In this document: one piece after another, positions 14,516-29,021 of the stretch
How positions within the stretch are numbered: position 1 is the stretch's first letter
Layout: each line of letters begins with the position of its first letter
IMG/VR virus record: IMGVR_UViG_3300025000_000188
Span: 1 to 43,622 of that record
Reading direction: 5' to 3' (one strand)
DNA: 43,622 nt
From: a virus
Position numbers and translations under genes: made by a program
The notes under the pieces: model-generated
The model's input: only the letters and a program-made list of their open reading frames with translations
What the model was told of the DNA's origin: nothing
Databases searched by the model: none

Positions 14516-16556
14516 AGTTCAATATGAAACACAGTTTTTGCTAGGAGCTAAAGTTCAAGCAAGTCTTGGGAAAGCTTTTGGTGGTGTGCAGAAAAATATG
14601 CAGGCTATGCAAAAACAGGCTAGTATTACCGAACGTGCATACAACGGAATAGGAAGTGCGTTAAAGGGATTGACTGGAGCAGCAGCAGCTTATGTTGGAC
14701 TTAATGCTGCTAAAGATCTAGCTGCAAAAACCATTGATACAATAGATAATTATGCATCTATAAACGCAAGAATCAATATCATGAATACCGGACTAGAGAC
14801 TACATCTCAGCTTCAAGACATGATATTCAAATCTGCTCAAAATAGCAGAGGTTCATATATTGATATGACATCATCTATTGCTAAAATGGGAATTCTTTCA
14901 AAGGAGTCTTTTAGAAACAATACAGAATTAATTGAATTTACTGAATTGCTTCAAAAATCATTTAAAATAGGAGGGGCTTCTGCACAAGAACAAACAGCAG
15001 CGATGTATCAGTTGACACAAGCTATGTCAGCCGGCAAACTCCAAGGTGATGAATTTAGAAGCATAATGGAAAACGCACCACTTTTGGCAGAGGCAATTGC
15101 AAAATATACCGGAAAAAGCAAAGGTTATTTAAAAGAGATGTCAAAAGAAGGCACTATAACTTCTGATGTAATTAAGGCATCTGTTTTTGCAATGGCAAAT
15201 GACATAAATAATAAATTTAACACTATGCCGAGAAATTTCGGTGATATTATGATGAGTATAAAAAATAATACGATAAAAAGTTTCGGAAAATCTATGGATA
15301 CAATTATTAAATACTTAAATAATCCTAAAATCATAAATGCTTTAAACAAACAAGAAGTCATAATTAATTCTTTACAAAAAAACTTATCAAATAATTTTAT
15401 TAAGTTTAAAAATTTAGGATTAATTGCTTTTAATAATATTAATAAAGCTGTTATAAAAAATAAGCCTACGCTTGATGCTTTTAAATTAGTAGTAATCAAT
15501 ATCGGGCAAAGGCTATACGATGCATTCACAATCGCAAAGCCAGTAATATCTTGGATATTTACAAATGGTTTTCCACTATTAATTGATCTTGGCAGTAGGG
15601 TATTAGATGGAGTAACATTTATATACAATATGTTTAATAATTGGACAACAATTGAGCCAATTATAAAAAACATAGGCATTGCATACGCAGGGTGGAAAAT
15701 AATCGAAATAACAGAAAGCGTAATAAAACTAACTGCTGCAATGAAAGTTTTGGTTGGGTGGAAAATGAAAGATATTTTTGTAACTGGTGCTTTGACTGCA
15801 ATGTATGTATGGGAATCATTATCCTTAAAAGCTATTTTGTTCTGGAATTCTGCTGTTATATTAGCTACATCAGCTTGGACTATAGTATGCGGAATAGCAG
15901 CTGGTGCAACATGGGCATTTGGTATAGCAATGGCATTTCTTACGAGCCCTATTGGGTTGATTATACTTGCAATAGGAGCGGTTATAGTAGCAGGTGTTTT
16001 GTTATACAAAAACTGGGATAAAATTAAAAGTGTTGCAGCAGATGTATGGGTATCGATTAAAAATAGTTTTGCAGACTTTATGAATTTTTTTATTCCTGGA
16101 ATTAATAGCCTAATAGAAATAATAAATAAAATACCGGGCGTAAATATTCCGATTATAAAAGATAAATTCACAAAAGAAATAAAACCAAGCCAACAAAAAT
16201 TGCTGGATTATTATAATTCACACAAAGGTATAGGTGGAAGTGGATTCGAGATTCCACAACACAAAACAGGACTAAACTATGTTCCTAATGATGGATATGT
16301 TGCAGAATTACATAAAGGCGAAGCCGTGGTGCCTGCTAAGTACAATCCGTATAATAGTAGAGCAGAAAGTCTTTTAAATAGATATAAAGGCAATAGAAAT
16401 AATCAAACGGTTTCAGTATCATATTCGCCGCAAATTATTATTCAGGGCAATGCAGATGCAAATGTTATTGGAGAAGCAAACAAACAATCATTCAAAGATT
16501 TTGAGAAATGGTATTATGCAGTTGTGGACAAAAAAAGAAGGCTAAATTTTGCATAA
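14505..16556 (+). CDS. Tail tape measure protein
   Basis: 683 aa. The N-terminus (EYNGIGSALKGLTG-type helix and ASAQEQTAAMYQLTQAMSAG near 165-185) matches the tape-measure N-terminal domain. Hydrophobic membrane-like segments lie at about 375-500. The C-terminus holds HTGLNYVPNDGYVAELHKGE, a common end motif. It sets tail length and helps DNA enter the host. At 683 residues the tail should be short for a contractile phage. The stop lies at the hairpin of the minus-strand cassette. Confidence 0.92.
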   Translation: MANRVQYETQFLLGAKVQASLGKAFGGVQKNMQAMQKQASITERAYNGIGSALKGLTGAAAAYVGLNAAKDLAAKTIDTIDNYASINARINIMNTGLETTSQLQDMIFKSAQNSRGSYIDMTSSIAKMGILSKESFRNNTELIEFTELLQKSFKIGGASAQEQTAAMYQLTQAMSAGKLQGDEFRSIMENAPLLAEAIAKYTGKSKGYLKEMSKEGTITSDVIKASVFAMANDINNKFNTMPRNFGDIMMSIKNNTIKSFGKSMDTIIKYLNNPKIINALNKQEVIINSLQKNLSNNFIKFKNLGLIAFNNINKAVIKNKPTLDAFKLVVINIGQRLYDAFTIAKPVISWIFTNGFPLLIDLGSRVLDGVTFIYNMFNNWTTIEPIIKNIGIAYAGWKIIEITESVIKLTAAMKVLVGWKMKDIFVTGALTAMYVWESLSLKAILFWNSAVILATSAWTIVCGIAAGATWAFGIAMAFLTSPIGLIILAIGAVIVAGVLLYKNWDKIKSVAADVWVSIKNSFADFMNFFIPGINSLIEIINKIPGVNIPIIKDKFTKEIKPSQQKLLDYYNSHKGIGGSGFEIPQHKTGLNYVPNDGYVAELHKGEAVVPAKYNPYNSRAESLLNRYKGNRNNQTVSVSYSPQIIIQGNADANVIGEANKQSFKDFEKWYYAVVDKKRRLNFA

Positions 16557-16590
16557 AAAAGAGGCATGTTAATAAAAATAGCATGCCTCT
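16554..16590 (-). terminator. Terminator of the minus-strand cassette
   Basis: Nine-base arms AGAGGCATG (16560-16568) and CATGCCTCT (16582-16590). Read on the minus strand, the stem is followed by six T, so it ends leftward transcription. Its base overlaps the tape-measure stop codon. Confidence 0.8.
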
Positions 16591-16596
16591 AAAAGA

Positions 16597-16797
16597 TTAC
16601 TTTAAGCGATTTAGGATATCTTCTTTAAAAAATAATTGCGTATGCTTATGTTTTTTAATAGGAATTAACTTGTTTCTTCTTATTAAATCATCTATGTTTT
16701 GTCTAGAACAATTTAATATTTCCATAACCTCGGAAGTTGTTAAGACTTCCGAAGCTATGAATGCTGCTAAATCATTTTTGCTATTAAATTTGTACAC
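16597..16797 (-). CDS. Small helix-turn-helix DNA-binding protein
   Basis: 66 aa from a GTG with AAAGGAGG upstream on the minus strand. Residues 16-45 (SEVLTTSEVMEILNCSRQNI) followed by DDLIRRNKLIPIKK form a MerR/excisionase-like helix-turn-helix with a recognition helix and a wing. It is the last gene of a three-gene minus-strand cassette lying inside the tail operon. It may regulate the cassette's own promoter or a host gene. Function unknown; the DNA-binding call is good. Confidence 0.8.
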   Translation of the reverse strand: MYKFNSKNDLAAFIASEVLTTSEVMEILNCSRQNIDDLIRRNKLIPIKKHKHTQLFFKEDILNRLK

Positions 16798-16799
16798 GG

Positions 16800-16955
16800 T
16801 TAAGACCTCCTTTGCTTATAAAAGTTTAATACTAAAGCTATAACAAGCAATACAAATTTAATAAAATCTAATGCTGATGGATTTTTGAAATCTCCATCTA
16901 ATATTTGCACTATTACAAGTGCAAAAAGTAAAACAGTAATATATTTTGATTTCAT
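16800..16955 (-). CDS. Small two-span membrane protein
   Basis: 51 aa. Two hydrophobic segments (YITVLLFALVIVQIL and FIKFVLLVIALVLNF) flank a short Asp/Asn loop; the C-terminus is basic (YKQRRS). Its stop lies next to the ribosome site of the helix-turn-helix gene. No strong Shine-Dalgarno precedes it, so translation may depend on the upstream peptide. A role in superinfection exclusion or toxicity is possible but unproven. Confidence 0.6.
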   Translation of the reverse strand: MKSKYITVLLFALVIVQILDGDFKNPSALDFIKFVLLVIALVLNFYKQRRS

Positions 16956-16979
16956 AAAATTAAGTGACTGTGTTATAAT
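16951..16979 (+). promoter_or_regulatory. Candidate plus-strand promoter antisense to the 28-aa peptide
   Basis: Extended -10 TGTTATAAT (16971-16979) with a weak -35-like TTCATA 17 bases upstream at 16951-16956. A transcript from here would run antisense through the hairpin, the peptide gene and its ribosome site. No clear terminator is visible, so the RNA's length is unknown. Confidence 0.45.
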
Positions 16980-16984
16980 ATATT

Positions 16985-17009
16985 CAGGAGGGGATTTCTC
17001 CCCATCCTG
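16985..17009 (-). ncRNA. Stable RNA hairpin after the 28-aa peptide
   Basis: The 25-base region forms arms CAGGA-TGGGGA and TCCCC-TCCTG with one bulge and a GAAA tetraloop on the minus strand. No T-run follows. It lies 12 bases beyond the peptide stop and could protect the mRNA or act as a target of the antisense RNA. Only the structure is seen; a distinct RNA is inferred. Confidence 0.5.
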
Positions 17010-17020
17010 CGGACTTCTTG

Positions 17021-17107
17021 TTATTTGTTCTTTAAACTCTTAATTAGAGTTGCGGTGGTCAAACCTAGAACAATTATTTCAAGTAAGTCCTTTATTATTT
17101 CAATCAC
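17021..17107 (-). CDS. 28-aa hydrophobic peptide, candidate type I toxin
   Basis: GTG start with a strong GAGGAGGTG on the minus strand, 28 codons plus stop. The peptide has an acidic N-terminus (MIEIIKDLL), one membrane-spanning stretch (EIIVLGLTTATLI) and a basic end (KSLKNK). That build and size resemble type I toxins or holin-like toxins of Gram-positive prophages. A strong minus-strand promoter and a possible antisense promoter frame it. The toxin role is inference; a leader peptide is possible. Confidence 0.55.
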   Translation of the reverse strand: MIEIIKDLLEIIVLGLTTATLIKSLKNK

Positions 17108-17133
17108 TCTTTTCACCTCCTCTCTATGTTTAT

Positions 17134-17162
17134 ATTATATTATAGCACTTGTTAATTGTCAA
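17134..17162 (-). promoter_or_regulatory. Consensus promoter of the minus-strand cassette
   Basis: On the minus strand a perfect TTGACA (17157-17162) is followed by 17 bases and a perfect TATAAT (17134-17139). It drives the peptide, membrane and helix-turn-helix genes. It lies just upstream of the LysM gene, facing away from it. Confidence 0.85.
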
Positions 17163-17215
17163 GTATATTTTATAAAATATTTGTAAAAAATATTAAAAAA
17201 TGGATGGTGCTAAAC

Positions 17216-25980: not shown

Positions 25981-25991
25981 ACCCTCTTTTC
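25969..25991. terminator. Bidirectional terminator between convergent genes
   Basis: Arms AGAGGGT (25970-25976) and ACCCTCT (25981-25987) with an ATAA loop and T-rich flanks on both strands. Both convergent genes end here. Confidence 0.75.
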
Positions 25992-26734
25992 TACAAATCA
26001 GTCCAATTCTTTGAACTCACCTTGCCATTGCTGATAAAAACATCAATTGCCTTCATGGTGAAGCCTTTTTGATAATGAAACATTTCGCTTTTACCCAAAC
26101 CTGCAAGTTCGCTTTCACTCACCATATCAGGCTCTCCTAATATATCTATAACTTCTTGCTTAGTCATTCCCGCTTTTATTTTTTCATAATTTTCTTTCGT
26201 GATTTCTTTATCAACCTTTTCGCTTATAATATCGACTTTTTCGTTTACAGTCTCTGCCGCATTAGATGATACTGAAGCAACAGTAGAAGATACAGGAGCA
26301 GTTTTATTCGATGAAACCCCTAGGATAACCCCAAAAATGATTAACGCCGCAATAACAACAAAAGCAGCAGGTAATTTGTTTTTATTAGGTTTATTGTTCG
26401 AAGTAATACTTTCTTTAATTTCTGATATTTCAGAACCGTCTAAGGATTTTACTTTATTTATAATTTCAGCTTCCAATATTTCTGTTTTTTCTTCTAATCT
26501 TTTGCCAATCTTAAACACATCTAAAAGAGCCCAAAACCCTAAACCTCCAAGTGTAAACGTCATAGCCATAGCTTTCTTAGTATCACCAAGATAGTATCTA
26601 TGTCCTCCAATGCCTCCTGTAAACCACCATGCTAAATACATAACAGTTTTGCTCTTTTTCTTTTTATCTAACTCACTTTGTACTATTGCTAATTGTTCCG
26701 TGGACAAATCCTTTTTCAATAACATGTTATTCAT
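25991..26734 (-). CDS. TM2-domain membrane protein with BamE/SmpA-like C-terminus
   Basis: 247 aa. After an N-terminal charged helix come two membrane spans with the TM2 signature (FTGGIGGHRYYLG at about 38-50). A third span lies near 120-142. Then a Ser/Val linker and a domain starting NYEKIKAGMTKQEVIDILGE, the pattern of SmpA/OmlA and DUF3862 lipoproteins. The second domain would be outside the cell. AGGGGGAT ribosome site on the minus strand. It is most likely a lysogenic conversion protein; the partner is unknown. Confidence 0.75.
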   Translation of the reverse strand: MNNMLLKKDLSTEQLAIVQSELDKKKKSKTVMYLAWWFTGGIGGHRYYLGDTKKAMAMTFTLGGLGFWALLDVFKIGKRLEEKTEILEAEIINKVKSLDGSEISEIKESITSNNKPNKNKLPAAFVVIAALIIFGVILGVSSNKTAPVSSTVASVSSNAAETVNEKVDIISEKVDKEITKENYEKIKAGMTKQEVIDILGEPDMVSESELAGLGKSEMFHYQKGFTMKAIDVFISNGKVSSKNWTDL

Positions 26735-26976: not shown

Positions 26977-27168
26977 TTATTTTTTCTTTTTAATATTTAG
27001 TTTTGATCTTGATTTTTTCTTTTTGATATAAGCGATATATTGTATTAATATTTTGGTGATAAATTTATTTACCATTAGCATTTGATTTGAAGCTAACTCA
27101 TCAAGTTCATCAAGCAAATCTTTTGGTAAAGTAATTGTAATTCGAGTATTGGTTTCTCTGATAGCCAT
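26977..27168 (-). CDS. Ribbon-helix-helix DNA-binding protein
   Basis: 63 aa from ATG 27168 on the minus strand. NTRITITLPKDLLDELDELA is a standard ribbon-helix-helix strand and first helix; the C-terminus is very basic (KKKSRSKLNIKKKK). It has its own promoter, with two tandem operator-like 12-mers immediately upstream of the -35. It lies divergent to a small plus-strand gene, so it probably controls both. Confidence 0.85.
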   Translation of the reverse strand: MAIRETNTRITITLPKDLLDELDELASNQMLMVNKFITKILIQYIAYIKKKKSRSKLNIKKKK

Positions 27169-27184
27169 TTTTTCACCACTTTTT

Positions 27185-27237
27185 ATATTATGTATTAGAT
27201 TAGCATATATCAAAAAGTGTGCACTAAAGTGTGCACT
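27185..27237 (-). promoter_or_regulatory. Promoter and tandem operator of the ribbon-helix-helix gene
   Basis: Minus-strand TTGATA (27208-27213), 17-base spacer, TAATAT (27185-27190). Directly upstream lie two perfect gapless 12-base repeats AAAGTGTGCACT (27214-27225 and 27226-27237), each near-palindromic around AGTG/CACT, as expected of an operator bound by paired ribbon-helix-helix dimers. Confidence 0.75.
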
Positions 27238-27283
27238 TTCTTTGACTAAAATAAAAAAATATGCATAAGAGGAGCGGGCACAA

Positions 27284-27532
27284 ATGATTAGAAGTAGTAA
27301 AGCATTTAAAGAATTTGTAGTAAAGAGATGCGAGGAAATATTAAAGGAAAATAATGAATATAATAAATTGCTAAAACAAAGCAATGAAATAATAAAAGAT
27401 TTAATGTCTGAGTTGTCCGAAGAAAACAAAGAGACATTTTTAAAATACGAATTAATAAATGCAAAAATGCAATCATTAATTGAGACGTCAATATATGTAA
27501 TTGCGTTGAGTGATGCAAAACAAATATTTTAA
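27284..27532 (+). CDS. Small helical protein divergent to the ribbon-helix-helix gene
   Basis: 82 aa, AGAGGAG ribosome site. All-helical with heptad-like charge pattern (EFVVKRCEEILKENNEYNKL, IIKDLMSELSEENKETF). It shares the operator region of the divergent DNA-binding protein. Could be a partner in a two-gene regulatory or toxin-antitoxin pair; no known family. Confidence 0.6.
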   Translation: MIRSSKAFKEFVVKRCEEILKENNEYNKLLKQSNEIIKDLMSELSEENKETFLKYELINAKMQSLIETSIYVIALSDAKQIF

Positions 27533-27944: not shown

Positions 27945-29021
27945 TCAACTTAGTTTTAGTACTTTATTAAGCTTATCAGCAGCTTCTTGCTGCATTTTAC
28001 TCGTAACATGTTGATATATTTTTTGAGTAATTTGCGGAGTCGAGTGCCCAAGGAAATCGGCTACTATTTTTGAATCTACGCCATGCCCTAACAACATGGT
28101 TGCAGTGAAATGCCTTAAGTCATGTAATCTGATATGAGGTAATCCGTGTTTTTTTAAAAGATTTTTAAATCTATGTGAATAATTTCCTCCATTTTCAGGA
28201 GTGCCATCTTGTTTTGGAAAAACATATGCATCTCCAATGCCTTGATACTTTTTTAAAATATTCTTAATATCTGATGGAAAAATAAAGCTTCTAAAACTAG
28301 TTTTATTTTTAGGCTTTTTGATTATTATTCCTTTAGATGTAGGCACTGCCGCTTGTCGTACATGAATAATATTATTGTCTAAATCTACGTCGGACCACCT
28401 TAAACCCATGATTTCGGAACGTCTTAAACCGCACATTCCTCCTAATACAATAACCAATTCATCCTTTGTGCCTTTTATGCATTTTAACAACTTATTATAT
28501 TCTTCTTCAGTGTAAATATTTGATTCGTATTCTTTTTGCTCTGGCAATATTACAAATGAACATGGATTTCTAGTTAATAATTCATTGCTTATTGCATCAT
28601 TAAATGCTTTCCTCAAAATTGCATGTTGTTGTCTAATATTAATCCCTTTTTCCGTTTGCTTATTATAAAATTCTTGTACGTGAATAGGCTTAATTTTTGA
28701 TAGTATCATTTTGCCAAGCGACGGAATTATATGCTTCTTAATATGAGATGTGTATCCATCTATAGTCATAGGAGCCTTTGTAATACAATAAACTTCTAGC
28801 CATGTTTTTAAATAAGACTCTAGTGTTAATTTATTTGACTTTATAAAATCACCCGAATCCACTTTTGCTTTACATGCGTTCATTTGTCGCACTACTACCT
28901 TTCTCTTGACATCTCTAAACCATTCTCGCTTTCTTTCGCCAGTAATTGGGTCTTTTTTTAATTCTACATAGCCTATCCACGGACCTCCTTGCGTTCTTTG
29001 AAACGGATTCTTTGACGCCAT
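27945..29021 (-). CDS. int: Tyrosine site-specific integrase
   Basis: 358 aa. N-terminal arm-binding domain (residues 1-60), core-binding SAM-like domain (65-160) and a catalytic domain with Arg200 (GGMCGLRRSE), His300 and Arg303 (LHDLRH), His326 (FLGHS) and nucleophile Tyr336 (KIYQHV). It joins attP to the bacterial tRNA-Leu. It lies 2 bases after the repressor gene on the minus strand, so both share the leftward lysogeny promoter. It sits directly beside the attachment core. Confidence 0.96.
   Translation of the reverse strand: MASKNPFQRTQGGPWIGYVELKKDPITGERKREWFRDVKRKVVVRQMNACKAKVDSGDFIKSNKLTLESYLKTWLEVYCITKAPMTIDGYTSHIKKHIIPSLGKMILSKIKPIHVQEFYNKQTEKGINIRQQHAILRKAFNDAISNELLTRNPCSFVILPEQKEYESNIYTEEEYNKLLKCIKGTKDELVIVLGGMCGLRRSEIMGLRWSDVDLDNNIIHVRQAAVPTSKGIIIKKPKNKTSFRSFIFPSDIKNILKKYQGIGDAYVFPKQDGTPENGGNYSHRFKNLLKKHGLPHIRLHDLRHFTATMLLGHGVDSKIVADFLGHSTPQITQKIYQHVTSKMQQEAADKLNKVLKLS

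Follow-up and report, generated by a model that had tools for sequence, protein, structure and literature searches.

The closest described counterpart of the locus reported here is yonT/SR6/yoyJ of the Bacillus subtilis prophage SPbeta, a proven type I toxin-antitoxin locus (PMC3531473, PMC5848175). Further type I loci are carried by C. difficile prophages (CD0956.2-RCd10 and others), where hydrophobic peptides of 28 to 60 amino acids with charged C termini are countered by antisense RNAs, and these loci have been linked to prophage stability (PMC6563280). Another point of reference is the Listeria small RNA rli48, which published work describes as under in vivo regulation, as patchy in distribution, or as inducing interferon. 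In one review, rli98 and rli48 are listed as mutually antisense (PMC4179725), an arrangement that points to transcription of both strands; we found no paper that calls rli48 an antitoxin or assigns it a function.

Here, we describe a cassette in a phage genome, hereafter the window (the whole stretch of DNA analyzed, 43,622 bases of one virus record), whose order of genes and signals is that of YonT/SR6/YoyJ. We consider it likely that this cassette is a moron carrying an autoregulated type I toxin-antitoxin system of the YonT/SR6 layout, with prophage maintenance as its probable role.

A self-contained minus-strand cassette among the tail genes

The window phage is contractile-tailed, encoding a GpA-type terminase large subunit, a tail sheath, a tape measure, and an amidase, and the presence of a tyrosine integrase (27945-29021) together with a CI-like repressor indicated that it is temperate. 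The cassette forms a minus-strand unit (16560-17164) between the tape measure and tail-protein-X/LysM-like genes, with the following features in and around it:

Ending at 16556: tape measure gene (TMP_3, E 2.7e-45), one flank of the cassette.
16560-16590, minus strand: intrinsic terminator hairpin (-14.9 kcal/mol, z -4.5), followed by a U6 run to about 16554.
16797 (GTG) to 16597, minus strand: winged helix-turn-helix (HTH) protein of 66 amino acids, putative autorepressor (HTH_17, PHROG 4691).
16955-16800, minus strand: two-span membrane protein of 51 amino acids, in the position of YoyJ, with no Shine-Dalgarno sequence.
16951..16979, plus strand: predicted antisense promoter TTCATA-17-TATAAT (10/12 consensus positions plus TG), with the extended -10 element TGTTATAAT at 16971-16979.
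16985..17009: stem-loop after the peptide stop codon (-17.4 kcal/mol, z -3.2), where the predicted antisense RNA would begin.
16986..17117, plus strand: predicted antisense RNA of about 100 to 130 nt, putative antitoxin (rli48 alignment; z -3.2 for a 100-nt fold).
17107 (GTG) to 17021 (stop), minus strand: membrane peptide of 28 amino acids, MIEIIKDLLEIIVLGLTTATLIKSLKNK, putative toxin, with homologues in loci L180 and L199.
17113..17121, minus strand: Shine-Dalgarno sequence of the peptide gene, AGGAGGTGA (9-base match).
17162-17134, minus strand: sense promoter TTGACA-17-TATAAT (12/12 consensus positions).
17147..17164, minus strand: putative operator ACTTGACAATTAACAAGT, overlapping the -35 box (7/9 arm positions complementary).
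17216: ATG of the tail-protein-X/LysM-like gene, the other flank.

The minus-strand unit set out in the preliminary description, with its perfect promoter, 28-amino-acid peptide, 51-amino-acid two-span protein, HTH protein, and terminator, was recovered in full. Four features had escaped that description: a promoter on the opposing strand, the stem-loop behind the peptide gene, the palindrome of the putative operator, and the lack of a Shine-Dalgarno sequence for the middle gene.

The sense promoter is the only perfect one in the window, where two matches with at most one mismatch were found versus 0.9 expected in shuffled sequences. The terminator was not listed by a consensus scan of the window, presumably because of its long loop. 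The peptide is small and hydrophobic and is served by this promoter of its own, as in type I loci; its tail is short and less basic than those of most relatives, and the 31-amino-acid version given by the open reading frame finder begins at a GTG within the Shine-Dalgarno sequence.

The same place is empty in other phages. The tape measure and LysM-like genes of five relatives have no cassette between them, being separated by 12 nt in L095-L097 and by 1 nt in L099 and overlapping in L098, and this adjacency of the flanking genes indicated that the cassette of the window is an insert. Its own promoter and terminator, the empty site in relatives, and the integrase and CI-like repressor of the phage bear out the earlier view of a self-contained moron in a temperate phage.

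Distribution and conservation of the cassette

The HTH protein served as query for relatives among phages, plasmids, viral contigs, and genomes; the profile scan used a two-sequence alignment, a six-sequence alignment being too diverse. Similarity searches with the window peptide and two-span protein in phages and plasmids gave no matches. An automated screen requiring a promoter, a Shine-Dalgarno sequence, a peptide, and an HTH gene in order was passed by 42 cassettes, the window included, from Bacillota phages, prophages, and plasmids, and the named hosts were Bacillus, Lysinibacillus, Parageobacillus, Anoxybacillus, Aneurinibacillus, Desulfosporosinus, and other Bacillota. Many of the loci found in these searches encode a peptide of 28 to 70 amino acids, typically with a basic tail, then a two-span (in some, one-span) protein of 50 to 65 amino acids, and then the HTH protein. 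The preliminary description had named absence of the three frames from phage relatives as a point on which its reading could fail; the frames instead recur in the same order in many relatives, and this check spoke against refutation.

The closest relatives of the window cassette are L180 and L199, each with all three genes. Among sampled genomes, the HTH family occurred in 33 of 397 from one bacillar order and in 16 of 391 from one clostridial class; in many of the clostridial cases, it formed part of a larger protein. The Lachnospiraceae loci L012-L030 were set aside, their HTH domain being the tail of a larger protein with no cassette, and L031, a virus contig with the highest-identity HTH protein, was left out of the count for want of a peptide upstream. 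Cassettes elsewhere lie after lysis genes, opposite lysis genes, between the lysin gene and attP, or beside the terminase.

All three frames are under purifying selection, with pooled pN/pS values over six pairs of 0.31 for the peptide, 0.25 for the middle protein, and 0.20 for the HTH protein. Two clostridial homologues share 16 to 17 of 27 residues with the window peptide, 26 to 30 of 51 with the middle protein, and 31 of 65 to 66 with the HTH protein. Family medians for the Shine-Dalgarno match were 9 for the peptide gene, 5 for the HTH gene, and 2 for the middle gene, and none of the 34 two-span genes in the family had a match of at least 5 upstream.

A putative autorepressor and a putative operator

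The HTH protein exceeded the Pfam cut-off for HTH_17 and matched PHROG 4691, annotated as "excisionase," over its full length (E 1.3e-25). Its AlphaFold model is a confident winged HTH (pLDDT 92.9), the nearest solved folds of which include the excisionase RdfS, BldC-DNA, and RacA-DNA (Foldseek E 0.03-0.2); on the strength of this resemblance, the protein is likely to bind DNA.

A candidate target lies in the sense promoter. Across 33 distinct cassette promoters, a palindrome has its center exactly 7 nt downstream of the first base of the -35 box, with a mean of 6.27 of 9 arm positions complementary at that center versus 1.9 to 3.6 at 26 other offsets. Moreover, the arms covary, with 207 matches observed in these 33 promoters versus 158.8 ± 6.4 after permutation, and none of 5,000 permutations in which the right arms were re-dealt exceeded 182 matches. 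The palindrome also tracks the third gene: it sits at the -35 box where that gene encodes an HTH_17 protein, while the different third gene of Listeria phages goes with a perfect 18-bp palindrome near the -10 box, and SPbeta and phi3T, both of which are without such a third gene, have none at the corresponding place. Autorepression through the palindrome would be the simplest reading of the HTH protein.

An opposing promoter and a predicted antisense RNA

The predicted antisense promoter lies inside the start of the middle gene, whose start sits on its -35 box, and is directed back at the peptide gene. Across the family, the opposing extended -10 element (TGnTATAAT) was perfect in 14 of 39 cassettes versus 0.8% of mononucleotide shuffles and scored at least 7 of 8 in 27 of 39 versus 10% of shuffles; it scored poorly in about a third of cassettes. 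Since extended -10 motifs were not enriched across the whole window (7 found versus 6.1 expected), the case for the antisense promoter rests on its conserved position.

When stem-loops were compared directly across cassettes, one was present after the peptide stop codon in all 36 distinct cassettes examined, with a median z of -3.3 over the 36 sites and quite different stem sequences. No terminator for the predicted antisense RNA was identified, and an automated count of terminators across the family was discarded, as T-runs in loops shorten the fold. At the sequence level, the cassette has a promoter for a predicted antisense RNA that overlaps the putative toxin mRNA, which is what a type I system calls for, and it is this promoter that decides how the cassette is interpreted.

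Comparison with known systems

The likeness to yonT/SR6/yoyJ extends to a one-span peptide, a stem-loop after its stop codon, an extended -10 promoter firing back, a two-span protein next in order, and carriage by a prophage. Nevertheless, SPbeta has no HTH gene after yoyJ, which is followed by yonU, and pyonT lacks a palindrome at the equivalent place. Profiles of the cassette peptides (a subset) and of the two-span proteins detected neither YonT nor YoyJ above background, and the Rfam model SR6_antitoxin (RF02892), which scored 128 bits on SPbeta itself, had no match in the window. As no sequence homology to YonT or YoyJ was detected, we class the cassette as working like YonT/SR6 rather than as a member of that family. 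The C. difficile loci, compared through their published description, are reported with neither an HTH partner nor a second membrane gene, unlike the cassette of the window. The new element relative to YonT/SR6 would be a dedicated protein repressor, in a cassette spread by Bacillota phages and plasmids.

The Rfam model rli48 (RF01479) aligned end to end with the plus strand of the window (16967-17117), with a score of 22.6 bits and an E value of 0.06-0.17 that is near chance taken alone. The close relative L199, whose alignment also ran end to end at the corresponding place of its cassette, reached 44.5 bits (E 5.6e-7), and both scores lie below the gathering score of 100. The position of the match is exact in several cassettes, as positions 1-149 of the 149-position model aligned antisense to the peptide gene in the window, L180, L073, L069, and L061; off-place matches of similar score also occurred in L066 and L182. 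A weak snoRNA match was dismissed as chance.

DNA for rli48 itself was found in the Listeria phages B025, U153, LP-HM00113468, and others, and opposite it lie a 33-amino-acid peptide, a stem-loop, an opposing promoter, a two-span protein of 45 to 46 amino acids, and a third protein of 68 to 69 amino acids. The Listeria locus resembles the cassette in having a peptide gene and a two-span gene opposite the RNA, a shared arrangement that would explain rli48, but its third protein has no Pfam or NCBIfam match and its promoter palindrome is placed elsewhere.

Alternative explanations

A module for superinfection exclusion or anti-phage defense is unlikely, although it is the strongest competitor. 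In such a module, the two membrane proteins would prevent entry or set off abortive infection, and the antisense RNA and the HTH protein would do no more than adjust how much of them is made. The small membrane products would suit it, type I toxins could act likewise, and some cassettes adjoin defense or toxin-antitoxin genes, namely SIR2-like and AAA ATPase genes in L002, an Abi family protein gene on pAT1, and PemK/MazF on pDESACI.01. Against this, other cassettes sit among ordinary phage genes, often after lysis genes or between the lysin gene and attP, and possession of a dedicated antisense RNA is what distinguishes type I toxin-antitoxin loci. Among the roles offered in the preliminary description, plasmid-like stabilization comes nearest, given the type I anatomy of the cassette, while no finding favors superinfection exclusion over the type I reading.

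We regard as improbable an accessory of lysis or host takeover, with a holin-like peptide and a membrane protein adjusting lysis and the HTH protein as a switch. Many relatives do lie directly after holin and amidase genes; however, the cassette has its own promoter and terminator, often runs against the direction of the lysis genes, as in Listeria phages and SDFMU_Pfc, and also occurs far from them, as in the window and on the terminase side in L046 and L009.

The label of PHROG 4691, the RdfS excisionase as nearest fold, and the proximity of some relatives to int might suggest an excisionase or integration module, a reading to which we give very little credence. In the window, over 11 kb separate the HTH gene from the integrase gene, so that the expected linkage is missing; the HTH gene is instead the last gene of a membrane-peptide operon and travels with two membrane genes. 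In addition, the promoter palindrome points to self-regulation, and on plasmids or beside the terminase there is no adjoining integrase partner.

An origin of the frames and promoter matches by chance in AT-rich DNA, with which the background frequency of extended -10 motifs in the window would agree, is refuted by an order, frames, palindrome, and stem-loop kept in dozens of loci and by pN/pS values of 0.2-0.3, leaving this explanation a negligible probability.

Proposed mechanism and implications

In the type I reading, the minus-strand promoter would yield an mRNA for the 28-amino-acid membrane peptide, presumed toxic, the two-span protein, and the winged-HTH protein, while the opposing promoter would yield a short stable RNA that starts in the stem-loop after the peptide stop codon and is antisense to the peptide gene. 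Pairing of this RNA with the toxin mRNA would lead to cleavage by RNase III, so that no toxin is made. The HTH protein may occupy the palindrome that overlaps the -35 box, shutting down the sense promoter while leaving the antisense promoter active. Were the prophage lost, both transcripts would cease, and any surviving toxin mRNA would outlast the protection, by which lysogens would be kept.

More tentatively, and with less than even confidence, the cassettes may form a widespread, unnamed phage-borne class of three genes whose single toxin operon is held in check both by an RNA antitoxin and by a dedicated repressor. The middle gene of this class, which has no Shine-Dalgarno sequence and whose start overlies the -35 box of the antitoxin promoter, would be translated in an unusual way gated by the antitoxin. 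If the type I reading is right, small genes now scattered as "hypothetical" or "excisionase" through Bacillota phages, prophages, and plasmids would become one recognizable system, rli48 could be tested for a role as the antitoxin RNA of a prophage, and the protein autorepressor would be a layer undescribed for YonT/SR6. The type I reading would likewise make the internal ATG the true start of yoyJ, in which case copies that were described as broken in other species of Bacillus (PMC5848175) may in fact be whole. Finally, under the more tentative reading of a three-gene class, entry of such a phage into a repressor-free cell would give a burst of toxin transcription, and the cassette could thus act at infection as well as upon prophage loss.

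Further genes and domains in the window and in other loci

Two further minus-strand frames were recognized in the window:

25991-26734, minus strand: TM2-domain protein whose C-terminal region is DUF3862/BamE-like
26977-27429, minus strand: 150-aa frame whose C-terminal end gives an Arc-like ribbon-helix-helix match

The TM2-domain gene, located in the interval from the lysis genes to the integrase, is a candidate for a further moron. In the related locus L002 (3000-7000), a cassette has an AAA ATPase-like gene on one side and a SIR2-like gene (532 aa) on the other, and this region is possibly a defence island of a Bacillus prophage. The HTH domain of the third cassette protein was also observed in Lachnospiraceae and other rumen clostridia (L012-L030) as the C-terminal part of a ~275-aa protein, presumably similar to DUF2442 proteins; the cassette was absent from these loci. 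The Listeria phage version carries a different third-gene entry:

L201:2539-2748, minus strand: third gene, encoding a 68-69-aa protein

This protein had no match in Pfam or NCBIfam, its gene is accompanied by a perfect 18-bp palindrome at the promoter, and it perhaps represents an unrecognised DNA-binding family.

Start of the middle gene

No Shine-Dalgarno sequence (match ≤3) was found before the two-span middle gene in any of 34 cassettes, including that of the window (16800-16955, minus strand), and its start codon overlaps or adjoins the antisense promoter's -35 box. Despite the missing Shine-Dalgarno sequence, the frame is under purifying selection. In locus L093 (1696-1947), the corresponding yoyJ is annotated as 83 aa starting at 1696, while family comparison suggests that the conserved start is an internal ATG at 1753, likewise lacking a Shine-Dalgarno sequence. 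If this internal ATG is the true yoyJ start, supposedly broken copies in other Bacillus species may therefore be intact.
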